Source: Acidobacteriota bacterium
Lineage (GTDB): Bacteria; Acidobacteriota; Vicinamibacteria; Vicinamibacterales; UBA2999
DNA length: 64,000 nucleotides
Reading direction: 5' to 3'
NCBI GenBank assembly: GCA_020851565.1
Contig: JADZCN010000113.1
Location: forward strand, 62,001-126,000
A program made the position numbers and the translations under genes. Positions within the stretch are counted from its first letter, which is position 1. The number at the start of each line of letters is the position of its first letter. Of the stretch, positions 6,799 through 61,925 are shown in pieces. The notes below the pieces were generated by a model. The model did not search any database. It saw nothing but the letters and a program-made list of their open reading frames with translations, and had not been told where the DNA came from.

Positions 6799-6825
6799 TA
6801 AAGCCGATAACGCGAACGCCGATTG
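6799..6825 (+). promoter_or_regulatory. Candidate sigma28 (FliA) promoter TAAAG-N14-GCCGATTG upstream of flgM
   Basis: taaagccgataacgcgaacgccgattg. Confidence 0.65.
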
Positions 6826-8913: not shown

Positions 8914-9800
8914 TGCGCGTCACGTTCAACAACCTGAATGACGGCGTGGCCGCCCTCAACGTCGCCGCGTCCGCCCTCGACCGCGCGCAGGATCAGCTCG
9001 CGACCGGCCGGCGCCTTCGAGCCGCCAGCGACGACCCGGCTGCGGCGCAGCGCGCCGTGGACAGCCGCGCCGAGATCGCCACGCTCGACGCCTACACGCG
9101 CACCGCGGACTCGGCCGAGGCCCGACTCACGTCCATCGATGCGGTGCTGACCGGCATCATCGAGCGGATTACCGAGGCCAAGGTCACCGCGGCCGGCGCC
9201 CGGGGCGACACGGCCACGACGGAGGCCCGCGAGGCCATGGCCGACAAGATCGACGGCATCCGCGACGCCATCCTGGGCGCCATCAACACCTCGGTCGGCG
9301 GCACGCATCTCTTCTCGGGCGGACAGGCGTTCGCCGCCGCGTACGTGTTCACGGCTGGGGCGTGGGTCTACCAGGGTGATTCGAACGCCGTGGCAGTGGC
9401 GACGGCCGGCAACAGCACGGTCGCGGTGTCGCTCGATGGGCAGGAGATCATCCAGGGCGCGGATGCCGCCGATCTGTTCAGCGAGATCGACGCGCTGGCC
9501 GCGGCCGTTCGCAGCGGCGATCAGGCCGGCATCCAGGCCGGCATCGAGTCGCTCGACCGTGCGTTCAACCGCACCGTCCGAGCCCAGAGCCAGGTGGGCG
9601 TGCACATGAACGGCCTCGAGGAGGATCAGCGACAGGTCACGGCCCTCCGCCTGGCGAGCCAGAAGCGCCTGTCGAAGGACGAGGACGCGAACCTCGCGAA
9701 GGCGGCAAGCGATCTCTCCCGCGCCGACACGGCCTATCGTGCCGCGCTCGGCGCCATCAGCACGGCCGGCCGCGTCTCGCTGATGGACTACCTCCGATGA
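8913..9800 (+). CDS. flgL: Flagellar hook-associated protein FlgL
   Basis: ALDRAQDQLATGRRLRAASDDPAAAQRAVDSRAEI...; flagellin-like; follows flgK. Confidence 0.93.
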   Translation: MRVTFNNLNDGVAALNVAASALDRAQDQLATGRRLRAASDDPAAAQRAVDSRAEIATLDAYTRTADSAEARLTSIDAVLTGIIERITEAKVTAAGARGDTATTEAREAMADKIDGIRDAILGAINTSVGGTHLFSGGQAFAAAYVFTAGAWVYQGDSNAVAVATAGNSTVAVSLDGQEIIQGADAADLFSEIDALAAAVRSGDQAGIQAGIESLDRAFNRTVRAQSQVGVHMNGLEEDQRQVTALRLASQKRLSKDEDANLAKAASDLSRADTAYRAALGAISTAGRVSLMDYLR

Positions 9801-14756: not shown

Positions 14757-14783
14757 TAATCGGGCACCGCGCCGGAAGCTTGA
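14757..14783 (-). promoter_or_regulatory. Candidate sigma28 promoter TCAAG-N14-CCCGATTA for fliC
   Basis: Minus strand TCAAGCTTCCGGCGCGGTGCCCGATTA. Confidence 0.65.
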
Positions 14784-15977: not shown

Positions 15978-17129
15978 ATGGCGACAGTGCCCTTCGCGCC
16001 CCCGGCCATCGGACAGGAGGAAATCGACGCGGTCGTCTCCACGCTCGCGTCGGGATGGCTCTCCACGGGGCCGCGCGTGCACGAGTTCGAGCGCGCCTTC
16101 GCGGCGTACACCGGTGCCCCGCACGCCATCGCGCTCAACTCGTGCACGGCGGCGCTGCACCTCGCCCTGCTTGCCTCCGGCATCGGCCCGGGCGACGAAG
16201 TCGTCACCACCCCGCTCACCTTCTGCGCCACCGCCAACGTCGCCCTGCACGCCGGCGCCACACCGTGCTTCGCGGATATCGATCCCGAGACCTGGAACCT
16301 GTCGCCCGCCGCGGCTCGCGCGGCCGTCACCGGGCGGACACGAGCCGTGCTGCCGGTGCACTACGCCGGCCGCCCCGCGGAGACCGCCGCCTTCCGTGAG
16401 CTTGCGGCCTCGCATGGCCTGACGCTCATCGAAGACGCTGCGCACGCCGTGGAGGCGGTATCGGGCGGACGGAAGGTCGGCACCACCGCCGACTACACGT
16501 GCTTCAGCTTCTACGCGACGAAGAATCTGACGACCGGCGAGGGCGGCATGCTGACGACGGCCTCGGACGAGGGCGCGCGCTTCGCGCGCATCGCGGGGCT
16601 GCACGGGATGAGCCGCGACGCGTGGGCCCGGTACGGCGGGGCGGGCTCGCCGCACTACGACGTCGTGATGCCGGGCTTCAAGTACAACATGATGGACCTC
16701 CAGGCCGCGATCGGTCTGCGGCAACTGGCCGGTCTCGAGCGCCGCCTCGCGCGGCGCGAGGCCATCTGGCGGATCTACGACGAGGGCCTGGCGGACCTGC
16801 CGCTGACGCGGCCCGCGCCGGTGGAGCGAGGCGACGTCCACGCGCGGCACCTCTACACGATCCTGGTCACGCCCGACACGGGCTGGTCGCGCGATGCGCT
16901 GGTGGCGGCCCTGGCCGCGCGCGGCATCACGGCCAGCGTGCACTTCCGCGCCCTGCACCTGCACCCCTTCTATCAGGAACGGTTCGGCTTCGTGCGCGGG
17001 CAGTTCCCGGCCGCGGAGCGCGTGTCGGATACCGTCATCTCGCTGCCGCTCTCTGGCGCCATGCCCGGCGCCGACGCCGAGCGCGTCGTCGATACCCTGC
17101 GGCAGCTCGTCCTGGGGGAGCGCGCGTGA
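15978..17129 (+). CDS. DegT/DnrJ/EryC1 aminotransferase (PseC/SpsC-like)
   Basis: PLTFCATANVALHAGATPCFADIDPETWNL...CFSFYATKNLTTGEGGML...PGFKYNMMDLQAAIGLRQL. Confidence 0.92.
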   Translation: MATVPFAPPAIGQEEIDAVVSTLASGWLSTGPRVHEFERAFAAYTGAPHAIALNSCTAALHLALLASGIGPGDEVVTTPLTFCATANVALHAGATPCFADIDPETWNLSPAAARAAVTGRTRAVLPVHYAGRPAETAAFRELAASHGLTLIEDAAHAVEAVSGGRKVGTTADYTCFSFYATKNLTTGEGGMLTTASDEGARFARIAGLHGMSRDAWARYGGAGSPHYDVVMPGFKYNMMDLQAAIGLRQLAGLERRLARREAIWRIYDEGLADLPLTRPAPVERGDVHARHLYTILVTPDTGWSRDALVAALAARGITASVHFRALHLHPFYQERFGFVRGQFPAAERVSDTVISLPLSGAMPGADAERVVDTLRQLVLGERA

Positions 17130-18142: not shown

Positions 18143-18827
18143 ACCCTGTGCGGTGCTGTTCGATCTCGACGACACGCTCTATCCGCACCGCCGCTTCGTG
18201 CTGAGCGGGTTCGCGGCCGTCGCCATTCACGTGGAGCGCTTCTGGGGGGTGGGTGCGGGCGAGGCCTTCGCCGTTCTCACCCGGGCGTATCGCTCGGTGC
18301 GCGGGCGCGAGCTGCAGGCGCTGGCGCGTCGCTTCGACCTGCCCGCCTGGCTGGTGCCCCAGCTGGTCGAGGTCATCCGCGCGCACGAGCCGCGGCTCAA
18401 CCTGCCCCGTCGTTCGGTGCGTGCGCTCCAGACGCTGCGGGAGGGATGGCGGATTGGCGTCGTGACCAACGGGCCGCCCGACATCCAGGCGCGGAAGGTA
18501 CGCGCGATGGGCCTCGAGCCGCTCGTGGACGCCGTGGTCTACGCGCATGCGACGGGGCGCGGGCTGGGCAAGCCCGATCGGGCGCCGTTCGTGGACGCCG
18601 CGCGCCGGCTGGGCGTGCGCGTGGCGCAGGCGGTCTTCGTCGGCGACGACCCCGTCGCCGACATCGGCGGAGCGCAGCAGGCCGGCATGTTCGCCGTCCG
18701 GCTGCGGCGCGGCGGCCGGCAGATGTGGGAGGCGGCGTGCGCCGCCGATGCGGTGATCGAATCACTGGACGAGGTGCCGTCGGTGGCCATGGCGTTGATC
18801 GACGGACGGAGGGCATATGTCGTTTGA
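18132..18827 (+). CDS. HAD-superfamily hydrolase
   Basis: AVLFDLDDTLYPHRRFVLSGFAAVAIH...GVVTNGPPDIQARKV...VFVGDDPVADIGGAQQAG. Confidence 0.88.
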   Translation: MRPEPCAVLFDLDDTLYPHRRFVLSGFAAVAIHVERFWGVGAGEAFAVLTRAYRSVRGRELQALARRFDLPAWLVPQLVEVIRAHEPRLNLPRRSVRALQTLREGWRIGVVTNGPPDIQARKVRAMGLEPLVDAVVYAHATGRGLGKPDRAPFVDAARRLGVRVAQAVFVGDDPVADIGGAQQAGMFAVRLRRGGRQMWEAACAADAVIESLDEVPSVAMALIDGRRAYVV

Positions 18828-19893
18828 AGGGCGGGGCTTCGAGATTGGCCATCACAGGATCGGGGCGGCGGAGCGGTTGTTCGTCATCGCCGAGATCGGA
18901 CTCAACCACGGCGGGTCGGTGGACCGGGCCCTGACGCTGGTCGATGCGGCCGCGGCAGCGGGCGCCTCGGCCGTCAAGCTGCAGACCGTCGACGCCGGGG
19001 CGCTGGTGTCGCCCAACGCCCCGGCTCCGGCCCACATCGAGGCCGGCTCGATGGTCGAGTTCTTCGCGCAGTTCGAGCTCGACGAGGCCGCGCACCGCGC
19101 CGTTGTCGCGCGTGCGCGCGAGCACGGGCTGGCCGTCCTCGCCACGCCGCTCTCGGAAGCCGCCGTGGATCTGCTCGAGCGGATTGGCATCGATGCCTTC
19201 AAGATCGCCAGCGGCGACCTGACCTGGCCCGGCCTCATCACCCGCGCCGCCCGCACGGGCCGGCCGCTGGTCATCTCCACGGGCATGTCGGACCTGCACG
19301 AGGTGTCGCGCGCCATGAAGTGGGCTCGCGAAGGAGGTGCGATCGACGTCGCCCTGCTCCATGCCGTCTCGGCCTACCCCACGCCCAGCGGCAACGAGAA
19401 CCTGCGCGCGATCGGCACCCTGGCCCACGCCTTCGACGTCCCGGTGGGCCTCTCCGACCACGGTCCCGACGGCTTCTCGCTGCCGCTGGCCGTGGCGCTG
19501 GGCGCCTGCATCTACGAGCGGCACCTGATGCTCCACGCGAACGACATGGTCGTCGACGCGGCGGTTTCGAGCACACCGACCTCGCTGGCCGCGCTGGTGC
19601 GCGCGGCCGCTCGCACGCGGGCGACCCTCGGGACGGGCAAGAAGACGTGCGCCTATGCGGAGCGGCCCAACCGGATTCCGAGCCGCCGCGCGCTGTACGC
19701 CGCGCGCCCGCTCAGGGCCGGCCATCGCGTCCAGCGGAGCGACATCATCGCGCTGCGCCCCGGCGTCGGACTTGCTCCCGACCGCGAGGGCGACCTCATC
19801 GGCCGCCGCCTGCCACGCGATGTCCCGGCGGGCGCCCCGTTCCTCGAGGGCGACGTCATCGTCAGCTACCGCGAGGCCGCGCGTGTCGCGTAA
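18817..19893 (+). CDS. N-acetylneuraminate/pseudaminate/legionaminate synthase family (NeuB-type with C-terminal SAF domain)
   Basis: LFVIAEIGLNHGGSVDRALTLVDAAAAAGASAVKLQT...; C-term RPLRAGHRVQRSDIIALRPGVGL. Confidence 0.93.
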   Translation: MSFEGRGFEIGHHRIGAAERLFVIAEIGLNHGGSVDRALTLVDAAAAAGASAVKLQTVDAGALVSPNAPAPAHIEAGSMVEFFAQFELDEAAHRAVVARAREHGLAVLATPLSEAAVDLLERIGIDAFKIASGDLTWPGLITRAARTGRPLVISTGMSDLHEVSRAMKWAREGGAIDVALLHAVSAYPTPSGNENLRAIGTLAHAFDVPVGLSDHGPDGFSLPLAVALGACIYERHLMLHANDMVVDAAVSSTPTSLAALVRAAARTRATLGTGKKTCAYAERPNRIPSRRALYAARPLRAGHRVQRSDIIALRPGVGLAPDREGDLIGRRLPRDVPAGAPFLEGDVIVSYREAARVA

Positions 19894-36899: not shown

Positions 36900-36926
36900 C
36901 AATCGGAGTTGCGTCGCATCGCTTGA
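36900..36926 (-). promoter_or_regulatory. Candidate sigma28 promoter TCAAG-N14-TCCGATTG for the mcp-cheW-mcp-cheARYXBD operon
   Basis: Minus strand TCAAGCGATGCGACGCAACTCCGATTG. Confidence 0.6.
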
Positions 36927-36994: not shown

Positions 36995-37849
36995 CTATGG
37001 CGTGCGGGGTCGCGGGACGTGACGAACGGCGATGCCGGCGGACACGAACCACGCGGACGCTCCCGCGCTCACGCTTCGCCCGGCCGACGCGTCCAGCTGC
37101 AGGTCCGGCCCGATCAGTCGCGTGACGCCGGCGTCGACCGTCCACGCGCCGCCCCCCGCGCGCGCGGCCGGCCTCGTGCCCGACACCTCGGCGAACGCGG
37201 CCCAGCCGGCGACGAGGTCGCGGCCGAGAGACCCGGCCAGGCCACGCTGCCAGACGCGGCCGGCCCCGTCGCTCGACGCCGAGACGGCCACGTTCCCGCC
37301 GGCTTGCAGGCCCGCGGGCAGCGTGTGCTGCCACGCGAGCGTGAGCGAGGGATCGACGGCGCCGGACGAGAACGCGGCGCTGCCAGCCGGCAGCGACACG
37401 GCGGGAATCATGGCGATCTCCAGCTCGCCCCGGCGTTCGCGCACCAGCCGGATCTTGAGGCCCGCGGTGAGGTCGGCCCGGCCGGTGTGCCGCACGTGCG
37501 CGTGTACCTCCGACACGAGACCGTCAGAACCGATTCGCGCCTCCACACCCCGGCCCAGCCCCATGCGCAGCACGGTCTGCGGGGCCACGAGCGTCGTGGC
37601 ATCCACGCCGGATTCCGCCGTGACGCCGATCTCCACCTGGATGACCCCGCGGGCCAGGACCGTGGGCGGATCGCTCAACCCGGGCCGGTCGGCGGCGATG
37701 GGCGGCGCGTCGGTTCGTGGGGCCGCCGCATCCTGCGCGAGCGCCGGAGACGCCGGCAGTGCGGCGCCAACGGCGCACGCGAGAACGAACAGGCGAAGGG
37801 ATCCGCCCGGGAGCGCCACGGTCCCGCGTGTCGAACAGGAACGGCGCAC
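36995..37849 (-). CDS. Outer-membrane beta-barrel protein, Phenol_MetA_deg-like
   Basis: Signal peptide; IAADRPGLSDPPTVLARGVIQVEIGVTAE...LRMGLGRGVEARIGSDG...AWFVSAGIAVR. Confidence 0.65.
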   Translation of the reverse strand: MRRSCSTRGTVALPGGSLRLFVLACAVGAALPASPALAQDAAAPRTDAPPIAADRPGLSDPPTVLARGVIQVEIGVTAESGVDATTLVAPQTVLRMGLGRGVEARIGSDGLVSEVHAHVRHTGRADLTAGLKIRLVRERRGELEIAMIPAVSLPAGSAAFSSGAVDPSLTLAWQHTLPAGLQAGGNVAVSASSDGAGRVWQRGLAGSLGRDLVAGWAAFAEVSGTRPAARAGGGAWTVDAGVTRLIGPDLQLDASAGRSVSAGASAWFVSAGIAVRHVPRPRTP

Positions 37850-37854
37850 GGGCG

Positions 37855-38640
37855 CTACTGCACCGAGATCCCGAGGCCGCCATAGACGCGGCTCGGGAAG
37901 AGCTCGCTCGCCAGCGTCCGCGAGTAGTTGACGAAGGGCGCCACGCTCAAATGCTTCAGCGGCGTCGGCACCTTCACCTTGACGCCGAACGTGGCGTCAC
38001 TGAAGGTCGAGCGATCGATCCACTGGTGATGGTTGTAGCCGATGCTGGCACTTGGCGTGACCGCGATGCCGTGGCCCATCGGGTACTCGTGGGCCACGCC
38101 CGCATTCACGTAGGTGCCCGAGCCCGCGTGCACGTCCTGGTAGACCCGCACCGCCGGGTTCATGTACGACGCATGCGCGACGCCGGCGTACACCTCGTCG
38201 GAATGGCGCCCCGTTTCCGCCGGCGGGAACACGTAGTTGATCCAGCCGGCGGACAGCGTGAGGCGGCCGGCCGATGCCGAGTAGTCCACGATCACGTCGT
38301 GCTCGGTGAGCGGGCCACCGGCGCGGCGACCCGCCACGTTGGCCCACGACGAAACCGTCAGCCCTCCCACCCTGATCCACGACGTCGGCTGCAGGCTGAA
38401 CGCGTCGGTTGGGACGAAGCCGCGCCAGATGTAGGCGCTGGTCGCAACCAGGTCGGTGCCCGCCGTGATCTTCACCCGCCTCAGGGCCTCGGCCAGCGTC
38501 TCGGGCGCCGGCTGCGACGCCGGCGCCTGGGCCGACGACGACTCGGCCGATGCGGCCGGTGTTCCCTGCGCGTGCGCGCCGCGCACCCCCGCCGCCATCG
38601 TCGCGGCCGTGGCCGCCACGACGACGATCACGCGCATCAT
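37855..38640 (-). CDS. Putative outer-membrane beta-barrel protein (TorF-like porin)
   Basis: Signal peptide then KITAGTDLVATSAYIWRGFVPTDAFSLQPTSWIRVGGLTVSSW; alternating beta-strands. Confidence 0.6.
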   Translation of the reverse strand: MMRVIVVVAATAATMAAGVRGAHAQGTPAASAESSSAQAPASQPAPETLAEALRRVKITAGTDLVATSAYIWRGFVPTDAFSLQPTSWIRVGGLTVSSWANVAGRRAGGPLTEHDVIVDYSASAGRLTLSAGWINYVFPPAETGRHSDEVYAGVAHASYMNPAVRVYQDVHAGSGTYVNAGVAHEYPMGHGIAVTPSASIGYNHHQWIDRSTFSDATFGVKVKVPTPLKHLSVAPFVNYSRTLASELFPSRVYGGLGISVQ

Positions 38641-38722
38641 GCGCACCTGCCCGAACGAACGGAGTCCCGGTCCGAACACGATCCACCTCCTCATGCGCCC
38701 GCGGTCCATCCGTGCCCGGGCG

Positions 38723-40495
38723 CTAGAACTTCACGTTCCACATCACGTAGGGCGACCACAGCGGCGAGGCCGTCGTGGACTGCTCCAGAAACGCGCCCGG
38801 AATCAGGTAGCCGAAGCCCGCGCCGAGCGAGAGCTCCCTGGAGAACACGTAGCTCACGGCCATCCCCAGCTCGGCGCCCACGTTGCGGCTGGTCGCCTGG
38901 GGGTTGAACACGGTGCGGGCGCCGCCGGCGTTGTAGAGCCCGTCGGCCGTCGTCGCCAGGTAGGCCTGGTGCAGCGTCGTGGTGAGCTTCACCTTCGCCG
39001 CGGGGGAGAGGTCGACGCCGACGACGGCATCGCGCATGTTGCGCCACCCCACCTGATCGACCAGGCCGTACTTCGCGTGGTTGGTGGGGTAGAACTGGTC
39101 GAACGTCTGGCGCCGCCCGTCGGCGGCGTCGGTGTCACCGGACGCGTGGTTGAACTCGACGAACACCCGCGGCTTCACGGGCGACCGGCTCACCAGCCAC
39201 CCGAGGGCGTAGTGCCCCGCCCACGCGGAGAGATCCTGGCCGGCCAGCGTGCCGCGCTCGACGACGACCTCCGCGACGACGTCCACGCGGTTCGGCAGCA
39301 CGGCGGCGATACGCGCGCCTGGCGCGTAGACGCGGCCCTCCCCGCGCGCGCCGAGCTCGCCTGCGACGAGGTCGGAGTCCCTGACGAAGACGTAGGGCTC
39401 GACCACACCCTTGAACCGCGTGACCGGCACGGTGGCCGCGGCACCGTAGAGCCGTTCATCGGTACGGCGCCGATCGAAGCCGTCCTGCTCGACGCGGACG
39501 ACCGAGGCCGCGAACACGTCGACCTTGCCGCGCGGGCCGTAGAGCGTGGCGCGCGCCGCGTCGAAGGTGCGCGCCGTGTTGGTCCACTCGAGCGACCCGA
39601 TGAGGCGCTGCTCGCCGTAGCCCAGCTCCTGGCGCCCGACGCGGAGGGCGAGGCCGCTCGCCGCGCGCGGCTGGACGTCCACATAGGCCTGGCGCAGGTC
39701 GAAGGTGTTGGTCATCGTCAGCGGCTGCGTCGCGGTGTTGAAGCCGAGCGTCTGCGAGTCCTGCACCTGCACGAAGGTGCGGAGCCATGGCGTGGCGACG
39801 ACGGTGGCGTCGAGCCGGATGCGATTGAGGTAATAGCCGTCGTCGCGGCCGTTGACCGCGGCCAGCCCCTCGGTGCCTTCCGCGCGGCCGCGGTACTGCA
39901 CGCCGACCTTCACCCACTTCGGCCACTCGTCGCTCAGCCGCTCGAGGCCCGTGGGCACCGGGCGGGGCGCCTCCGGCTTTCCTCCGGGAGCAGGCGCCGC
40001 CGTGCCCTGTGCCACCGCGGGCCCGGCGGGAGCGGGCGACTCGGTCCGAGCAGGCGCGGCCGCCGGTGCGGCCGGGGCCGGCTCTTCATGCTTTGCCGCT
40101 GTCGGCGCCGCGGCCGGTGTCTCGGGCGTCGCGACGACCGGAGCGGAGGCCGGGACCACGGCTGATGCGGGCGCCGCGGTGAGCGCCGGCGCGTCCCACG
40201 CCAGCGCCACCCAGGCGTCGCGGGCCGGCGCCGGGGCCGGCGCCTTCTTCGGCGCGGTGCGCGCCGGGCGGGGCGCGGGACGGGACCGGGACGCCTCCCA
40301 TCCGCTCTCGGCGGCGCCAGCGCTGGTTCGGCTCGCGGACGACGTCGACCCGGTCCAGGCTGCGCCCGTGGCGCTTCGCTTCGCCGCCGGCCAGATCTCG
40401 GCGTCCGGCTTCGACTGCGCGTGTCCGGTCACGGCGCCTGCGCACGCAAGCGCGCACGCAAGCGCGCACCGCGCGATTCGATCCGTGTTCGTCAT
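38723..40495 (-). CDS. Alginate-export-domain-like outer-membrane protein with Ala/Pro-rich N-terminal linker
   Basis: DGYYLNRIRLDATVVATPWLRTFVQVQDSQTLGF...FDLRQAYVDVQP...LRVGRQELGYGEQRLIGSLEWTNTARTFDAARATLYG. Confidence 0.8.
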   Translation of the reverse strand: MTNTDRIARCALACALACAGAVTGHAQSKPDAEIWPAAKRSATGAAWTGSTSSASRTSAGAAESGWEASRSRPAPRPARTAPKKAPAPAPARDAWVALAWDAPALTAAPASAVVPASAPVVATPETPAAAPTAAKHEEPAPAAPAAAPARTESPAPAGPAVAQGTAAPAPGGKPEAPRPVPTGLERLSDEWPKWVKVGVQYRGRAEGTEGLAAVNGRDDGYYLNRIRLDATVVATPWLRTFVQVQDSQTLGFNTATQPLTMTNTFDLRQAYVDVQPRAASGLALRVGRQELGYGEQRLIGSLEWTNTARTFDAARATLYGPRGKVDVFAASVVRVEQDGFDRRRTDERLYGAAATVPVTRFKGVVEPYVFVRDSDLVAGELGARGEGRVYAPGARIAAVLPNRVDVVAEVVVERGTLAGQDLSAWAGHYALGWLVSRSPVKPRVFVEFNHASGDTDAADGRRQTFDQFYPTNHAKYGLVDQVGWRNMRDAVVGVDLSPAAKVKLTTTLHQAYLATTADGLYNAGGARTVFNPQATSRNVGAELGMAVSYVFSRELSLGAGFGYLIPGAFLEQSTTASPLWSPYVMWNVKF

Positions 40496-40500
40496 GGCGT

Positions 40501-41193
40501 TCACTGCATCCCCCCGGCAACGTGTTGAGTGGTTCCGAGCGAAGCGGCGCCGACGGGCGCCGAGAACGTGACGTGCCCGCTCGAGGGCTCGTAGTAGGCG
40601 CCCACGATCTGCAGGGCGCCGTCCCGCACGAGGCGGCGCAGGGCGGCGCTCTGCTTCAAGGTGTCGTTGACCACCTGCTCGACGCTGGCGAGGACGGCCG
40701 CCCGCGCCGGATCGGCGCCGGCCTTGCCGGCCGCACGCTCGACCGCAGGGCGGATGGCCGCCGCCACGTAGTCGAAGTTCGGCCCGCGCCCCACCGCGCG
40801 CTCGCGCGCGGCGGACCGGACGATGTCGCACGACGCGTGGCCCATCACGACCAGCAGGGGCACGCGAAGGTGCTGGGCGGCGTATTCGAGGCTGGCGAGC
40901 GCCGATCGGTCGGCGACCGCGCCGGCGGCATGCACGACGAACAGGTCACCCGGGGCGACGTCGAAGACCCGCTCGGGAGGGACGCGCGCCTCTGCGCACG
41001 ACAGCACGGCGGCCAGGGGGCTCCCGCCCTTGATGGACATCTGCGGCGCGGCGCCGCCGGGCGCCTCGCCCTCGGTGCCGACGAAGCGGACGTTGCCGGC
41101 CTTGAGCGCGAACAGCGCGGCGACGGGTTCCGGCGCGCCGGATGCGCCGGCCGACATGCCGGTCGACAGCACCGCGGCCAGCGCGGCGCGCAT
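40501..41193 (-). CDS. Exported beta-carbonic-anhydrase-like protein
   Basis: Signal-like MRAALAAVLSTGMSAGA; LAAVLSCAEARVPPERVFDVAPGDLFVVHAAG...LVVMGHASCDIV (Cys/His/Cys ligands retained). Confidence 0.85.
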   Translation of the reverse strand: MRAALAAVLSTGMSAGASGAPEPVAALFALKAGNVRFVGTEGEAPGGAAPQMSIKGGSPLAAVLSCAEARVPPERVFDVAPGDLFVVHAAGAVADRSALASLEYAAQHLRVPLLVVMGHASCDIVRSAARERAVGRGPNFDYVAAAIRPAVERAAGKAGADPARAAVLASVEQVVNDTLKQSAALRRLVRDGALQIVGAYYEPSSGHVTFSAPVGAASLGTTQHVAGGMQ

Positions 41194-41265
41194 GTAGGGA
41201 TCTGTGAAGGTTCGTGCCACTCGCGCCGCCTCCCCGCGGCCGTCAGGGGTTCACGATCACTCCCC

Positions 41266-41292
41266 TAATCGGCGCGGGCGCGGACGGCTTGA
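41266..41292 (-). promoter_or_regulatory. Candidate sigma28 promoter TCAAG-N14-GCCGATTA upstream of the carbonic-anhydrase/OMP operon
   Basis: Minus strand TCAAGCCGTCCGCGCCCGCGCCGATTA. Confidence 0.6.
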
Positions 41293-47799: not shown

Positions 47800-47826
47800 T
47801 CAAGAACTTCGCGCCGGCGCCGATTC
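47800..47826 (+). promoter_or_regulatory. Candidate sigma28 promoter TCAAG-N14-GCCGATTC upstream of HD-motA-motB
   Basis: tcaagaacttcgcgccggcgccgattc. Confidence 0.65.
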
Positions 47827-47849
47827 CCCCCACGCAGGGAGGCAAAGGC

Positions 47850-48530
47850 GTGGACGGGCGCGTTTCGCAGGGAGTGATGGACCAGGCCGACCTGGCGTGG
47901 CGTCTGACGGCGGCATTTGCGGAGACAGGCGTGGGATCGACAACCGCGCTCGAGGGCCTGCTGGCCCGCCTGTATCGCGACGATGTCGAAGGTCTCGGGC
48001 ACCTCCACCGCGTCGCCGCGCTGGCCGCGAGAATTGGCGATGAGCTGGGGATCCCGGAGGGGCCGCTGGAGGATCTCGAACGTGCGGCGCTGCTTCACGA
48101 CATCGGCCGCTCGGTGCTGCCCGACCCGCCGGCGCTGGCCGCAACGCGCCAGGACGCGACCACGCTGCAGCGGCGGGCCGCACAGGTGCAGGTGGCCTGC
48201 GCCATCATGGGCACGATCCCGTTCCTCGCCCCTGCGGCGGCCATCCTGGAGGCGTCGGTCGAGTGCTTCGACGGCACCGGGTATCCCGGCGGGCGCCGCG
48301 GCGAAGACATCCCACTGCCGGCGCGTGTCCTGCATCTCGCCGACACGCTCGATACCCTCAATACCATCTGCGAGGCCCTCGCCGCACCGGCGGAGACGGC
48401 CAGCGTGGAGGTGGTGCGACAGGCCGGCTCCCGCTTCGACCCCGACGTGGTCTCCGCGTGGCTCAGGAGCGAGGAGGCCGTGCCCCCGCCGCTCGTGCCA
48501 TGGTGGTCGTCACTGGCCCGCTGGAACTAG
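47850..48530 (+). CDS. HD-GYP-like protein with degenerate catalytic residues
   Basis: AALLHDIGRSVLP and ASVECFDGTGYPGGRRGEDIPLPARVLHLADTLDTLN; canonical HHE replaced. Confidence 0.75.
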   Translation: MDGRVSQGVMDQADLAWRLTAAFAETGVGSTTALEGLLARLYRDDVEGLGHLHRVAALAARIGDELGIPEGPLEDLERAALLHDIGRSVLPDPPALAATRQDATTLQRRAAQVQVACAIMGTIPFLAPAAAILEASVECFDGTGYPGGRRGEDIPLPARVLHLADTLDTLNTICEALAAPAETASVEVVRQAGSRFDPDVVSAWLRSEEAVPPPLVPWWSSLARWN

Positions 48531-48560
48531 CGTGGGCGCGCGGCAGACCGAGGGGATCAC

Positions 48561-49427
48561 ATGCTGTTGATCGCGGGATTGATCGTCGTCGTGGGCTCGG
48601 TGGTGGGTGGATACCTGATGGCAGGCGGCCACCTGCTCCTCCTGCTGCAGCCGTCCGAGTTCGTCATCATCGGCGGCGCCGCCGCCGGCAGCCTGCTGAT
48701 CAGCACGCCGCCGAAGGTCCTGGCCAAGCTGCTGGCCCAGTGCCGCCTCCTGCTCGCACCCGGGCTGACGGCGAAGGACTACGCCGACCTGCTGGCGATG
48801 CTGTACCAGGTGTTCCGCCAGGCGCAGTCTGGCATCATGACCCTGGAGCCGCACTTCGAGAACCCCGAGCAGAGCAGTATCCTCTCGAAGTACCCGCGGT
48901 TCCTCGCCCGCCACCACTCGGTGGCGTTCCTCGCCGACTCCATCAAGGTCATCATCGTCGGCGGCATGCACCCGCACGATCTCGAGGCGCTCATGGACGA
49001 GGACCTCCAGGTGCACCACGCGAGCGAGACCAGCCCCGCGGGCGCGCTGACCAAGGTGGCCGACGCGCTGCCCGGCCTTGGCATCGTCGCCGCGGTGCTC
49101 GGTATCGTCATCACGATGCAGGCCATCGACGGCCCGCCGGAGGAGATCGGGCATCACGTCGGCGCGGCGCTGGTCGGCACGTTCCTCGGCATTCTCATGT
49201 CGTACGGCTTTGCGCAACCCATCGCCACGAGTCTGGAGCACCGCGTGCACCAGGACGGCTACTACGAGCTCTGCATCAAGGCGGGCGTGATGGCGACCTT
49301 CAAGGGCCTGCCGCCGGCCATCGCCGTGGAGTTTGCGCGGCGCGTGCTGCCCCATGATGTCCGTCCGAGCTTCGAGGAAACCGAGCGGCTGTGCCGGGCC
49401 TCGCGCTCCGAGCAGGCGGCGGCCTGA
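48561..49427 (+). CDS. motA: Flagellar stator protein MotA (copy 2)
   Basis: ALPGLGIVAAVLGIVITMQAIDGPPEEIGHHVGAALVGTFLGILMSYGFAQPIATSLEH. Confidence 0.96.
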   Translation: MLLIAGLIVVVGSVVGGYLMAGGHLLLLLQPSEFVIIGGAAAGSLLISTPPKVLAKLLAQCRLLLAPGLTAKDYADLLAMLYQVFRQAQSGIMTLEPHFENPEQSSILSKYPRFLARHHSVAFLADSIKVIIVGGMHPHDLEALMDEDLQVHHASETSPAGALTKVADALPGLGIVAAVLGIVITMQAIDGPPEEIGHHVGAALVGTFLGILMSYGFAQPIATSLEHRVHQDGYYELCIKAGVMATFKGLPPAIAVEFARRVLPHDVRPSFEETERLCRASRSEQAAA

Positions 49428-49429
49428 CG

Positions 49430-50287
49430 ATGAAGTCCACACCTGTCGTCATCGTCAAGAAGAAGGCGGCCCACCACGGCGGCCACCACGGCGGGGCATG
49501 GAAGGTGGCCTACGCCGACTTCGTCACCGCGATGATGGCGTTCTTCCTGGTCATGTGGCTCGTGACACAGAGCAAGGAGGTACGGGCCTCGGTCGCCGGC
49601 TACTTCCGGGACCCCGGCGTGTTCGACTATCAGCGATCCACGGGCATGCTGCCGGGCGGGCGGCCGGGTGTGGAGCCCGGCGGCGCGCCGACACCGGTGC
49701 CGCCGCCCGACGCGCAGGCGCTGCTCCAGGAGCAGCGGATCCTGGCGGGCGCCGCCGCGCACATCCGCGAGCGCCTGGCCCAGAGCCCGGGGCTGGCCAC
49801 GCTGGTCGACCAGATCGAGTTCACCCTGACGTCCGAGGGCCTCAAGATCGACCTCGTCGAGCGGGCCGACTCGAGCTTCTTCGACAGCGGCAGCGCCGAG
49901 CTGCGGGGCGAGAGCGAGCGCATCCTCCAGATCATCGCGGGCGAGCTCGCAGCGCTCGAGAACGAAGTGGTGGTCGAGGGGCACACCGACCGGCGGCCCT
50001 ACGCGGACGGCGCGCGCTACGGCAACTGGGAGCTGTCGGCCGATCGTGCCAACGCCGCCCGCCGTGCCATGCAGCGCGCGGGCCTGGCCGAGAGCCACGT
50101 GCGGGGCGTGCGTGGGTTCGCCGACACCCAGCTGCGGCTGAAGGACAGCCCGCTCGACCCGCGCAACCGGCGCGTGTCGATCGTCGTCCGGAGCCAGGCC
50201 GCGGCGGCGCTCGACGCGGCGATCCGCGCGGGGCAGGAGCCGCCGGCCGCGACGGACGCTCCCGTGCCGGCGCCCCCCCAGGACTGA
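49430..50287 (+). CDS. motB: Flagellar stator protein MotB (copy 2)
   Basis: VVIVKKKAAHHGGHHGGAWKVAYADFVTAMMAFFLVMWLVTQSKEVRASVAGYFRDPGVF; OmpA core VVEGHTDRRPYADGARYGNWELSADRANAARRAM. Confidence 0.96.
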   Translation: MKSTPVVIVKKKAAHHGGHHGGAWKVAYADFVTAMMAFFLVMWLVTQSKEVRASVAGYFRDPGVFDYQRSTGMLPGGRPGVEPGGAPTPVPPPDAQALLQEQRILAGAAAHIRERLAQSPGLATLVDQIEFTLTSEGLKIDLVERADSSFFDSGSAELRGESERILQIIAGELAALENEVVVEGHTDRRPYADGARYGNWELSADRANAARRAMQRAGLAESHVRGVRGFADTQLRLKDSPLDPRNRRVSIVVRSQAAAALDAAIRAGQEPPAATDAPVPAPPQD

Positions 50288-57429: not shown

Positions 57430-58323
57430 TCACCTCCGAAGCGAGGCTTCACCGAACAGGCACGTCGTGAGCGCGGCCACCGATTCACGCCGTGCAGCCA
57501 GCGCGGTCCACATCTCGCCCACGGCGCCAGGGTCCACCAGATCCGCGGGGTCGAGCCCTTCGACGTCTGCCGGGCCTTCGGGGGCCCGTTCCAGTCGCTC
57601 GGCGAGGGAGGAGGCCAGCCCGCAGGCCGCCGCGACACGCCAGTGATCGCCGCGGTAGCCCGGGGTCGCATGGTACCGCATGGCGGCAACGAGCGGGGCG
57701 GGCAGCCCCCAGGCTCGGCCCAGCGCCCCGGCGGCCTCACGGTGGTCCATGCCGACCGACGCGTGAAGGGCGTCCTCGAGGCACGCGCCGCTGGCGGCAG
57801 CGGAAAGCGCCTCGGACGTGAACAACGGCCACCGATCGGCGAGCCACAGCAGGCCCAGGTTGTGGAGCAGTCCCGCACTGCGCAAGGTGCCCTCGTCGCA
57901 GTCCGGATCGTGCGGCAGCAGGCGGGACGAGAGCAGCGCCGCCCCCTCGGCGGTCAGCAGGGCGGTCGACCAGTAGCGGACGACGTCGAAGCCGCGGCAG
58001 CGGTTCGGATCGAAGGGGCGCGCCACCGCCATGGCGAGGCTCACGCTCCGCACGACGCGCAGGCCCAGCCGCAGGCACGCGTCGTGCACGCTCGTGATCG
58101 GCCTGGCAGGCGCCGACCAGGCCGAATTCGCCAGCATCAACAGGCGCGCGGCGACGGAGGGGAACTCGCTCACCGCCGAGGCGAGGACCCGAATCCCGGT
58201 GTCGTCGCTGCCGATGGCGGCGAGCAGGCCCACCACGGCGGGTGGCACGGCCGGCGGACCGAGCGACGCCGTGTCCCCGGCCCGGCCGGCGGGGCGGCGG
58301 ACACCGCTGCGCGCGGCGCTCAT
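57430..58323 (-). CDS. HDOD domain protein
   Basis: ASAVSEFPSVAARLLMLANSAWSAPARPITSVHDACLRLGLRVVRSVSLAMAVARPF. Confidence 0.82.
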   Translation of the reverse strand: MSAARSGVRRPAGRAGDTASLGPPAVPPAVVGLLAAIGSDDTGIRVLASAVSEFPSVAARLLMLANSAWSAPARPITSVHDACLRLGLRVVRSVSLAMAVARPFDPNRCRGFDVVRYWSTALLTAEGAALLSSRLLPHDPDCDEGTLRSAGLLHNLGLLWLADRWPLFTSEALSAAASGACLEDALHASVGMDHREAAGALGRAWGLPAPLVAAMRYHATPGYRGDHWRVAAACGLASSLAERLERAPEGPADVEGLDPADLVDPGAVGEMWTALAARRESVAALTTCLFGEASLRR

Positions 58324-60710
58324 CCGGCCGCCACCCGGAGGAAGAACGCCGCCCGCGCGAGTGCGGGGATCGAGTCGGCGGGCACGGGCGGCGAGAAGAA
58401 GTACCCCTGCGCCGCCGCGCAGCCGAGAGCCTGGAGCACCTGCACCTGGTGCAGGGTCTCGACGCCTTCGGCCACCGTGGTCAACTGCAGCCCACCCGCC
58501 ATGCCGAGCACGGTGCCGAGCAGGAGGGGGGCTTCGCCATCATCGAGCAGCCCCTGGACGAACTGGCGGTCGATCTTCAGCGTGTCGATCGGCGTGTGCT
58601 TCAGCGCGGTGAGCGACGAGAACCCTGCGCCGAAGTCGTCGATGGCGATGCGCACACCGAGCTCCCGCAGCCGGCGGCACACGTCGCCGAGAAGCGGCGA
58701 ATCGCGCATGACGCTCTCCGTGAGCTCGATCTCCAGCCACCGCGGGTCGAGGCCCGTCGCCGTCAGGATCTTCTCCACGCGTTCGACGAAGGTGGGCGAG
58801 CCGAAGTGCGTGGGCGAGATGTTCACCGCGATGTCGAACGGCGCGAGACCCGCCTGCTGCCAGGCACGCGCCTGATCGCACGCCGTGCGCAGCACCCAGT
58901 CGCCGAGCGGCTCGATGAGGCCCAGGCGCTCGACGGTGGGAATGAAGGCATCTGGCGCCACGAGCCCGCGCCCGTGCCGCGGCCATCGGATGAGGGCCTC
59001 GACACCCGTCAGGCGGCCTGAGGCGAGCGCAATCTTCGGCTGGTAGAGGAGCTCGAACGCGCCGTGGTCCACGGCGGCGCGCAGTTCGGCCTCCACGGCC
59101 ATCTGTTCCTCGACCTCGCGGGTCATCCGGGGAGCGTAGAACTGGTAGCGGTGCTTTCCCGCCTGCTTGGCCGCGTACATGGCGGTGTCAGCGGTACGAA
59201 GCAGGCCCACCGCGTCGCGCGCATCGTCGGGGAACATCGCGATGCCGATGCTCGCCCGCGGCGTGACGGATCGGCCCAGGAGCTCCACCGGCGCGAGCAG
59301 CGCCGCGAGCAGCCGCTCGGCGACCTCCGCCGCACCGTGGATGCCGCCGACGGCGCTCAAGAGGATGCAGAACTCGTCGCCGCCCAGGCGGGCCACGACG
59401 TCGACCTCCCGGCACTGGGCCCGCAGGCGGCGCCCCACCTCCCGGAGCAGGTGGTCGCCCTGTTCATGTCCGAGCGTGTCGTTCACCGATTTGAAGCCGT
59501 CGAGGTCCAGCAGCAGCACGGCGAGCGCCTCGCGGCGCCGCTGCGCCATCTTCAGCGCGTCCTCGAGCGACTGGCCGAAGCCGGCGCGGTTGACCAGCCC
59601 GGTCAGCGCATCGTGGTTGACCAGGAACATCAGCTCGCGCGTGCGCTCCTCGATCCGATCCTCGAGCGCGCCATGGTGCGCGCGGAGACGCGCGGTCATG
59701 TCGTTGAACGCCATGGCCACCTGGCCCACTTCGTCGAGGGTCCGTGCCCGGATGTGGTAATCCAGGCGACCCGACCCGATCGCAGCGGCGCCTTCCGCGA
59801 GCTCACGCAGGGGCCGCAGGACCAGGGCCCGCAGGATGAGCACGGCGCCCAGGCCGGCGATGACGCCGGCGGCCGTCAGCAGGATGGCGGCGACGGAGAG
59901 CCGGGTAATCGACGTGCCGACGTCGTTTGCCGCTTCCTGCGATCGGCTCATCAGCTGGGCCTTCAGCGACGCGGCCAGGTTGGAGCTCAGCTGGTCCCGC
60001 AGCACCACGAACCGGGACCATCCGCCGCCCAGCCCCTCCACGTGATGGGCGAGTGTCTGCGCCTCGCGCTCGGCGAGCTCGACAACGCGGAGGGCGGGCG
60101 AGGCCGGCCCTTCGGCCCGCGCCGACGCGATCAGATCGGCGCGTGCCTGCTGGAACAGATCGCGCTCGACGGCCCCGCGCGTCCGCACGTAGTCGGCCGC
60201 CGCCAGCCGGAGGCCGTCGATGGCGCGGACGACTCGGGCGTGTCCTGCTGCCGTCCGTGCGGCGCCGGCGAGACGCTGGTTCACGCGATCATGGCTCACC
60301 CGGACCAGATCGTGCAGCGCGACCAGCTCGTCCCCCTGGGCGATCAGCCGCTCGTGGATGGCCTGCGTTTCGCTGCCCCAGCGGCGCTCGTCGTCCGAGC
60401 TCGCCCGTCCCCGGATGGCGCGCAACCGGTGGGCCAGCCCCCGCGCGCTCTCGACCATCCGCGCCCGCTGACTGGCGATGGGCGTCTCGATGTACTCGAC
60501 GGTGCTCTGGCTGTAGGCGGCCGTGCTCACCGCCAGGTCGAACGCGTCCGCCGTCATCGCATTGCTGGCGACGAGCTCCCGATACCGGTCGCGGACGGTC
60601 CAGGCCTCGACGTAGATCACCAGCATGGCGCCGGCGCCGCCGATGGTCACCAGCCCCACCGCGAGCTGGATCTTCCGCGCAAACGAGAGCCCGGCGATGT
60701 ACTTCAGCAT
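58320..60710 (-). CDS. Membrane GGDEF-EAL protein with N-terminal sensor and HAMP, both motifs canonical
   Basis: MLKYIAGLSFARKIQLAVGLVTIGGAGAML; HAMP; RLGGDEFCIL; GVEALIRWPRHGRGLVAP; start at 60710. Confidence 0.93.
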   Translation of the reverse strand: MLKYIAGLSFARKIQLAVGLVTIGGAGAMLVIYVEAWTVRDRYRELVASNAMTADAFDLAVSTAAYSQSTVEYIETPIASQRARMVESARGLAHRLRAIRGRASSDDERRWGSETQAIHERLIAQGDELVALHDLVRVSHDRVNQRLAGAARTAAGHARVVRAIDGLRLAAADYVRTRGAVERDLFQQARADLIASARAEGPASPALRVVELAEREAQTLAHHVEGLGGGWSRFVVLRDQLSSNLAASLKAQLMSRSQEAANDVGTSITRLSVAAILLTAAGVIAGLGAVLILRALVLRPLRELAEGAAAIGSGRLDYHIRARTLDEVGQVAMAFNDMTARLRAHHGALEDRIEERTRELMFLVNHDALTGLVNRAGFGQSLEDALKMAQRRREALAVLLLDLDGFKSVNDTLGHEQGDHLLREVGRRLRAQCREVDVVARLGGDEFCILLSAVGGIHGAAEVAERLLAALLAPVELLGRSVTPRASIGIAMFPDDARDAVGLLRTADTAMYAAKQAGKHRYQFYAPRMTREVEEQMAVEAELRAAVDHGAFELLYQPKIALASGRLTGVEALIRWPRHGRGLVAPDAFIPTVERLGLIEPLGDWVLRTACDQARAWQQAGLAPFDIAVNISPTHFGSPTFVERVEKILTATGLDPRWLEIELTESVMRDSPLLGDVCRRLRELGVRIAIDDFGAGFSSLTALKHTPIDTLKIDRQFVQGLLDDGEAPLLLGTVLGMAGGLQLTTVAEGVETLHQVQVLQALGCAAAQGYFFSPPVPADSIPALARAAFFLRVAAG

Positions 60711-60719
60711 CCGCCCGTG

Positions 60720-60746
60720 CAATCGGCGAGGGAGGGCGCGACTTGA
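60720..60746 (-). promoter_or_regulatory. Candidate sigma28 promoter TCAAG-N14-GCCGATTG for the GGDEF-EAL gene
   Basis: Minus strand TCAAGTCGCGCCCTCCCTCGCCGATTG. Confidence 0.7.
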
Positions 60747-60765
60747 GGGCCCGGCAGCCGAGGCC

Positions 60766-60792
60766 TCAAGGAGTTCGCCGACCTGCCGATTG
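60766..60792 (+). promoter_or_regulatory. Candidate sigma28 promoter TCAAG-N14-GCCGATTG for the GGDEF gene
   Basis: tcaaggagttcgccgacctgccgattg. Confidence 0.7.
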
Positions 60793-60851: not shown

Positions 60852-61925
60852 ATGCCGTTGTCGGACCTGATTGCGCTGGACCTGAAGGGAAAGTCGCCTG
60901 AGGACGAGGCGTCGGTCGATCTCCGGCGGCTGATCGCGCGGGCGCTGACGGTCGTGTACGAGCTCGTCTCGGCGGAAGAGGAGCCCGAGGACGCGCAGCT
61001 GCTGGCCGAGTTGCAGCAGCTGGCGGCCCAGTACAACATCGAGCCGCCGGCCCGCGACGCAGCGCGGGCGGGAATGGACTGCCTCGAGCGCACGCAGCCC
61101 GTGGCCAACCGGACGAGACGGCGGCGTGAGGAGCAGCGCCGCGAACTGACCGCCATCGTCGCACTCGTCCGTGAGGCGGTGGCCACGGCCGGCGTCGAAC
61201 TCGAGTCCATTCACTCGGAGATCGAGGCGTCGGGCGATCGGTTCGAGGCTATCGCGTCGCTGGAGGATCCGAGACAGGTGCGCGACCTGGTCAAGGTCCA
61301 CGTGGCGCAGCTCAAGCAGCTGGTGGCGGAGCGGCGCGCCTCATGGGAGACGCAGCGCCGGACGTTCAGCGACCGGATCGCGATGCTCGAGGAGCAGCTG
61401 CAGGCCACGCGCCACCAGGCGTCGCTCGACCCGTTGACCGGTGTCGCGAACCAGGGCAGCTTTCAGCGGGAATGCCAGGCCCGCCTCCGCCGCGCGGGCT
61501 CGCGCCTCGTCCTGGCCATTCTCGACGTGGACGGCTTCAAGGCCGTCAACGACACCCACGGCCATGCCGCCGGCGATCGCGTGCTGACGACGGTGGGCCA
61601 GGGCCTCCGGAAAGAGCTGCGCGATGGCGACTTCGTCGCTCGCGTCGGCGGCGACGAGTTCGCGGTGCTGATGGACAACGTCACGCTGCGTCAGGCCGAG
61701 GCCCGGTTCACGACCGTGCTGAGCGCGCTCAAGTCGGCGATGGCCGGAGCGAGAATGCCGGCATGCCCGACCATCAGCTGCGGCCTGGCTGAACTCTCTG
61801 CTGGCGACACCGCCGCCAGCCTGTACGAACGAGCGGATCAGGCCCTCTACGACGCCAAGCGCGCGGGGCGCCATCGCGTCGTGTGCAAGACCCGTCCGTT
61901 CACGCGCGACCTGCTGCGGCGCTGA
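60852..61925 (+). CDS. Diguanylate cyclase (cytoplasmic GGDEF protein)
   Basis: RHQASLDPLTGVANQGSFQRE...LAILDVDGFKAVNDTHGHAAGDRVL...RVGGDEFAVLMD. Confidence 0.93.
   Translation: MPLSDLIALDLKGKSPEDEASVDLRRLIARALTVVYELVSAEEEPEDAQLLAELQQLAAQYNIEPPARDAARAGMDCLERTQPVANRTRRRREEQRRELTAIVALVREAVATAGVELESIHSEIEASGDRFEAIASLEDPRQVRDLVKVHVAQLKQLVAERRASWETQRRTFSDRIAMLEEQLQATRHQASLDPLTGVANQGSFQRECQARLRRAGSRLVLAILDVDGFKAVNDTHGHAAGDRVLTTVGQGLRKELRDGDFVARVGGDEFAVLMDNVTLRQAEARFTTVLSALKSAMAGARMPACPTISCGLAELSAGDTAASLYERADQALYDAKRAGRHRVVCKTRPFTRDLLRR

Follow-up and report, generated by a model that had tools for sequence, protein, structure and literature searches.

The 64 kb stretch of DNA analysed here (the window; GC content of 72%, from a source genome of 6.06 Mb in 171 contigs) contains an operon headed by a gene for an exported beta-carbonic anhydrase (CA) which, judging from its conserved promoter sequence, is very probably a member of the FliA (flagellar) regulon. 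With somewhat less assurance, we regard it as a late FliA-dependent operon with a predicted conserved core of two products, the exported CA and a small exported low-complexity protein. Carbonic anhydrase, which interconverts CO2 and bicarbonate, is to our knowledge not a described flagellar-regulon product, and no description of a FliA-dependent carbonic anhydrase was found in the open-access literature (most of the subscription literature was outside the scope of the search). The retention of a sigma-28-type promoter across several families suggests that an extracytoplasmic CA is worth tying to swimming. The vague idea of pH/CO2 control for motility thus becomes directly testable genetically in motile members of the Acidobacteriota, a soil phylum that is abundant yet little studied.

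The operon comprises four minus-strand genes, tightly packed (neighbours overlap or stand only a few bases apart), in the order exported beta-CA, Alginate_exp barrel, a protein of no family and Phenol_MetA barrel. Coordinates and profile matches agree with the preliminary description, which had placed four tightly spaced reverse-strand genes behind a sigma-28-type promoter. Signal peptides, the basis of the term exported, were assigned by eye. The features are as follows.

41266..41292, minus strand: promoter of the CA operon, sigma-28-type, TCAAG-N14-GCCGATTA (flagellin-derived matrix score 22.9)
40501..41220, minus strand: exported beta-carbonic anhydrase, 239 aa (start GTG 41220 or ATG 41193; PF00484)
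38723..40504 (alternative start 40495), minus strand: gene 2, Alginate_exp (PF13372) outer-membrane barrel with an Ala/Pro-rich front (profile match)
39935..40504, minus strand: N-terminal extension of gene 2, possible fused partner (position relative to the CA stop, composition, WVALAWD)
37855..38709, minus strand: gene 3, exported protein, no family match (Pfam/NCBIfam search)
36995..37849, minus strand: gene 4, Phenol_MetA_deg (PF13557) outer-membrane protein (profile match)
36900..36926, minus strand: separate sigma-28-type site of the MCP/che operon, TCAAG-N14-TCCGATTG (score 20.6)
14757..14783, minus strand: reference site, flagellin promoter TCAAG-N14-CCCGATTA (best matrix score in the window)
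6799..6825, plus strand: reference site, flgM promoter TAAAG-N14-GCCGATTG (motif search, matrix)

Downstream the operon is flanked by MCP-CheW-MCP-CheA-CheR, and upstream by genes for an MptE/Maf-like protein, a glycosyltransferase and a methyltransferase. These are the chemotaxis operon and the Maf/sugar genes reported previously, flagellin being a putative target of the latter.

The first gene product matches the Pro_CA profile (PF00484; E 3.5e-30, 105.8 bits versus a cut-off of 25.7) and its predicted structure is closest to Rv3588c. The Zn ligands Cys-His-Cys are kept in all 19 CA orthologs described below, the window copy included, and the catalytic dyad Asp-Arg in 16 of them. Profile match, fold and Zn ligands thus bear out its earlier identification as an exported beta-CA-like protein, with export judged by eye. 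The window CA resembles Rv3588c-type beta-CAs in fold, Zn ligands and sequence, but differs from them in being exported, in being encoded together with a low-complexity secreted protein in one operon, in lying behind a sigma-28-type promoter, and in its dyad, which is Glu-Arg (catalytic Asp replaced by Glu). The other altered dyads are Glu-Leu (G016) and Asp-Ala (G111), and two of these three CAs sit on the longest branches of the tree. Most members of the clade should be enzymatically active, while the window copy may be weakly active or changed; its assignment to the beta-CA family is by fold and descent and carries no claim of full activity.

The exact promoter string TCAAG-N14-GCCGATTA occurs only once in the 6.06 Mb genome and was absent from 100 shuffles of the window. 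The looser pattern TCAAG-N14/15-GCCGATT has six matches in the genome, five of which fall within the window, i.e. within 1% of the genome (binomial p about 8e-10); the five stand before CA, before an HD-domain gene with motAB behind it, and before genes for a sensor kinase, a GGDEF-EAL protein and a GGDEF protein. A sigma-28 matrix was built solely from 20 flagellin promoters of relatives in the family, where all 20 fliC-type flagellins have TMAAG-N14-[CT]CCGATTA or a one-base variant, a motif not found with the flgL controls. With this matrix the CA site ranked second in the window, behind that of flagellin. Nine window sites scored at least 16 (0.1 expected from shuffles), all of them a short way upstream of genes; the eight besides the CA site precede motility, chemotaxis and c-di-GMP genes and the sensor kinase gene. 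FliA is encoded just ahead of the window (L184:16200-16979; TIGR02479, 226.6 bits versus a cut-off of 189.6) and FlgM (PF04316) inside it. A reversed-motif control for the motif counts was discarded as unfair, because the reversed motif contains a stop-like TTAG; paralogs, flgL and shuffles served as controls in its place.

The consensus of late (class 3) sigma-28/FliA promoters of E. coli is TAAAGTTT-n11-GCCGATAA (PMC2859248). The window sites resemble such promoters in the -35 and -10 elements and have nearly the same spacing, and both FliA and FlgM are present; they differ in their local consensus, T(A/C)AAG-N14-[CTG]CCGATT, and in that FliA dependence is here predicted from sequence.

A search of 193 genomes of the class identified CA orthologs in 19 genomes, representing six families of one acidobacterial order (G012 entered the count through its own match). 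The set was split off by a gap in score (at least 257 bits versus 185 for the next match) and forms one clade (support 96/97), with no members outside the order in a sample of 396 genomes of the phylum. A strong flagellin-type site was present upstream of CA in 14 of the 18 orthologs with upstream sequence (that of G111 is missing); the remaining four comprise one marginal site (G093), two weak sites (G022 and G141) and one ortholog with no such site (G092). None of 27 correctly placed paralogous CAs reached the scores of the 14 strong sites; a 28th control, L159, was misplaced and excluded. In the fetched regions the CA loci lie mostly away from flagellar and che genes, which argues that the promoter site is conserved in its own right and not on account of a flagellar neighbour. 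The proposal of a sigma-28-type promoter has therefore been strengthened: the site fits a matrix derived from flagellins only, it is kept before CA orthologs in several families, and the genes for FliA and FlgM belong to the same cluster. Beside the CA promoter of G024 we also observed a second, divergent site, TCAAG-N15-GCCGATGA (L034, approximately 9726-9786), which faces away from CA.

Flagellin was found in 16 of the 19 genomes with CA, as opposed to 28 of the 174 others. Counting genomes, this gives p = 2.7e-9 at the level of the class, a statistic inflated by shared ancestry; after collapsing to genera within the family, p was 0.03. Conservation of the promoter is the stronger line of evidence, as the sites have different spacers, the loci are mostly unlinked, and the paralogs serve as controls. 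G141 lacks a flagellin match, but FlhA is present; in G037 and G116, which have the promoter site, neither flagellin nor FlhA was found in the incomplete assemblies. CA is not required for swimming, as it is absent from most motile genomes of the class.

In all 17 readable relatives, the gene directly 3' of CA encodes a small exported protein rich in Ala, Pro, His and Lys. It lies on the same strand, with its start at -4 to +34 bp relative to the CA stop, and specifies 128-305 aa (in G037 the contig ends within the gene). The C-terminus carries one to three R-V-x-L-x-W-like segments in 16 of the 17 proteins, versus 0.26 in shuffles of the same proteins. The six copies tested matched no Pfam family. 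This partner, which defines an unnamed family of small secreted proteins, had been overlooked in the preliminary description. In G124, which belongs to another family, CA and partner are followed by CheA (63%) and CheR (57%). Inspection by eye of the partner genes in L032, L034, L035, L037-L039, L041, L181 and L183, including their cleavage sites, showed that the mature N-terminus is often Q-x-H (QSH, QAH, QTH, QHH, QLH, QEH, QDH). To the eye this resembles the copper/nickel-binding X-X-His (ATCUN) motif.

The start of gene 2 overlaps the CA stop and so occupies the slot held by the partner gene in relatives. The product has an exported front of about 190 Ala/Pro-rich residues before the barrel, including one partner-like segment (WVALAWD) outside the strict R-V-x-L-x-W-like pattern; no Alginate_exp homolog in the relatives has a front as long. 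The simplest reading of gene 2 seems to be a partner fused, in the window, to an Alginate_exp barrel. Its identification as an alginate-export-type barrel was correct (PF13372; E 2.6e-57, 194.9 bits versus a cut-off of 25.2), yet the protein is longer than a plain barrel by these residues, and the match does not imply alginate as substrate. Gene 4 likewise proved to be Phenol_MetA-like (PF13557; E 6.3e-19, 69.4 bits versus a cut-off of 22). Both products match their profiles well over the cut-offs and differ from Alginate_exp and Phenol_MetA_deg proteins generally in belonging to a sigma-28-type operon and, for gene 2, in the long Ala/Pro-rich front. The TorF-like assignment of gene 3 could not be confirmed, since nothing scored above cut-off in Pfam or NCBIfam and no NCBIfam match came near it; its predicted structure was unusable (pLDDT 30).

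The single homolog of gene 3 in the family (G032, 47%; L061 13052-13822) has its own upstream TCAAG-N15-GCCGATTA and lies near the end of a contig that also holds the G032 flagellins, about 60 kb away. An Alginate_exp homolog of G032 lies apart, on the 1.8 kb contig L049; the ends of the two contigs do not overlap, so adjacency is unproven. As conserved CA partners the barrels were rejected: neither an Alginate_exp nor a gene 3 homolog occurs beside CA in the fetched relatives.

The coupling to motility put forward previously therefore stands in part. Predicted sigma-28 control of an exported CA is backed by a conserved site, whereas the idea of a conserved four-gene unit linked to che/maf genes is not supported. 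CA was seen to adjoin che genes in the window and in G124 only; no such neighbours appeared in the remaining regions fetched, some of which stop short at contig ends. Synteny of CA with motility genes thus appears only sporadic. A role in exopolysaccharide, drawn solely from the Pfam name of one barrel that does not travel with CA, is likewise unsupported. A pH/bicarbonate role of the operon is plausible, bearing in mind that the catalytic Asp is Glu in the window copy.

The pattern as a whole suggests that swimming cells may make a secreted CA as part of their motility kit. Release of FliA by FlgM would allow FliA-RNA polymerase to transcribe the CA operon along with flagellin, motAB and chemotaxis genes; we infer this timing, and the export of CA to the periplasm or surface. 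There the enzyme would buffer pH or supply protons near the motor or, alternatively, sharpen CO2/pH signals for chemoreceptors, while the His/Lys/Pro-rich partner would hold, metallate or anchor it. In the window organism an outer-membrane barrel would apparently have been fused to the partner, and the operon would have gained two more outer-membrane proteins. We put forward only tentatively that CA speeds CO2/HCO3-/H+ exchange near the motor or receptors of swimming cells and that the partner assists it in one of these ways. Slightly more doubtful is an order-wide acidobacterial motility accessory, in which a periplasmic CA and a dedicated partner, made with flagellin, would condition protons or CO2/bicarbonate at the motor or chemoreceptors. 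A can mutant of V. fischeri is recorded with a growth defect (PMC3948606), which we do not count as support.

The main rival to a role at the motor or receptors is a general envelope function that FliA controls in the planktonic phase, along the lines of Bdellovibrio: FliA would run a wider programme of free-swimming versus attached life, and the CA operon would have no mechanical link to flagellum or chemotaxis. The very similar Bdellovibrio motif (TTAAG-N16-CCGATA) precedes many non-flagellar surface genes of the FliA attack-phase regulon (PMC3627812), whose description does not mention carbonic anhydrase in its main text. The sigma-28-type sites of c-di-GMP genes in the window and the mostly unlinked CA loci agree with such a programme. 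We nevertheless consider it rather unlikely, given that CA is confined to a clade strongly tied to flagellin and adjoins che genes in two families, and that nearly all other window sites serve motility or c-di-GMP genes.

It is less probable still that CA is no longer a useful enzyme and that in motile cells it and its partner act as a scaffold or a surface layer. The three altered dyads, of which two belong to the longest branches, and the unusual, low-complexity partner would suit a structural role, but the Asp-Arg pair persists in 16 of the 19 orthologs and the Zn ligands in all. Finally, as sites resembling it also lie within genes and in genomes negative for flagellin, the motif might be a product of chance or serve something other than sigma-28, leaving the operon unrelated to motility. 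This appears highly improbable: the site lies just upstream of CA in several families, with different spacers and at mostly unlinked loci, it is not shared by the paralogs, and such sites are not expected from shuffles.

Several other genes in the window deserve mention. Two divergent sigma-28-type sites share one short intergenic region (60721-60791), for a GGDEF-EAL gene (58320-60710) and a GGDEF gene (60852-61925); through these predicted sites c-di-GMP turnover may be wired to the late flagellar regulon. At 47800-50287, a sigma-28-type site is followed by an HD_5-domain gene and then by motAB, the HD_5 gene being apparently the first of the motAB operon. Within the flagellar cluster, genes for a DegT/PseC-like aminotransferase and a NeuB/PseI-like synthase (15978-17129 and 18817-19893), neither at the equivalog cut-off, suggest a possible nonulosonic-acid decoration of flagellin.
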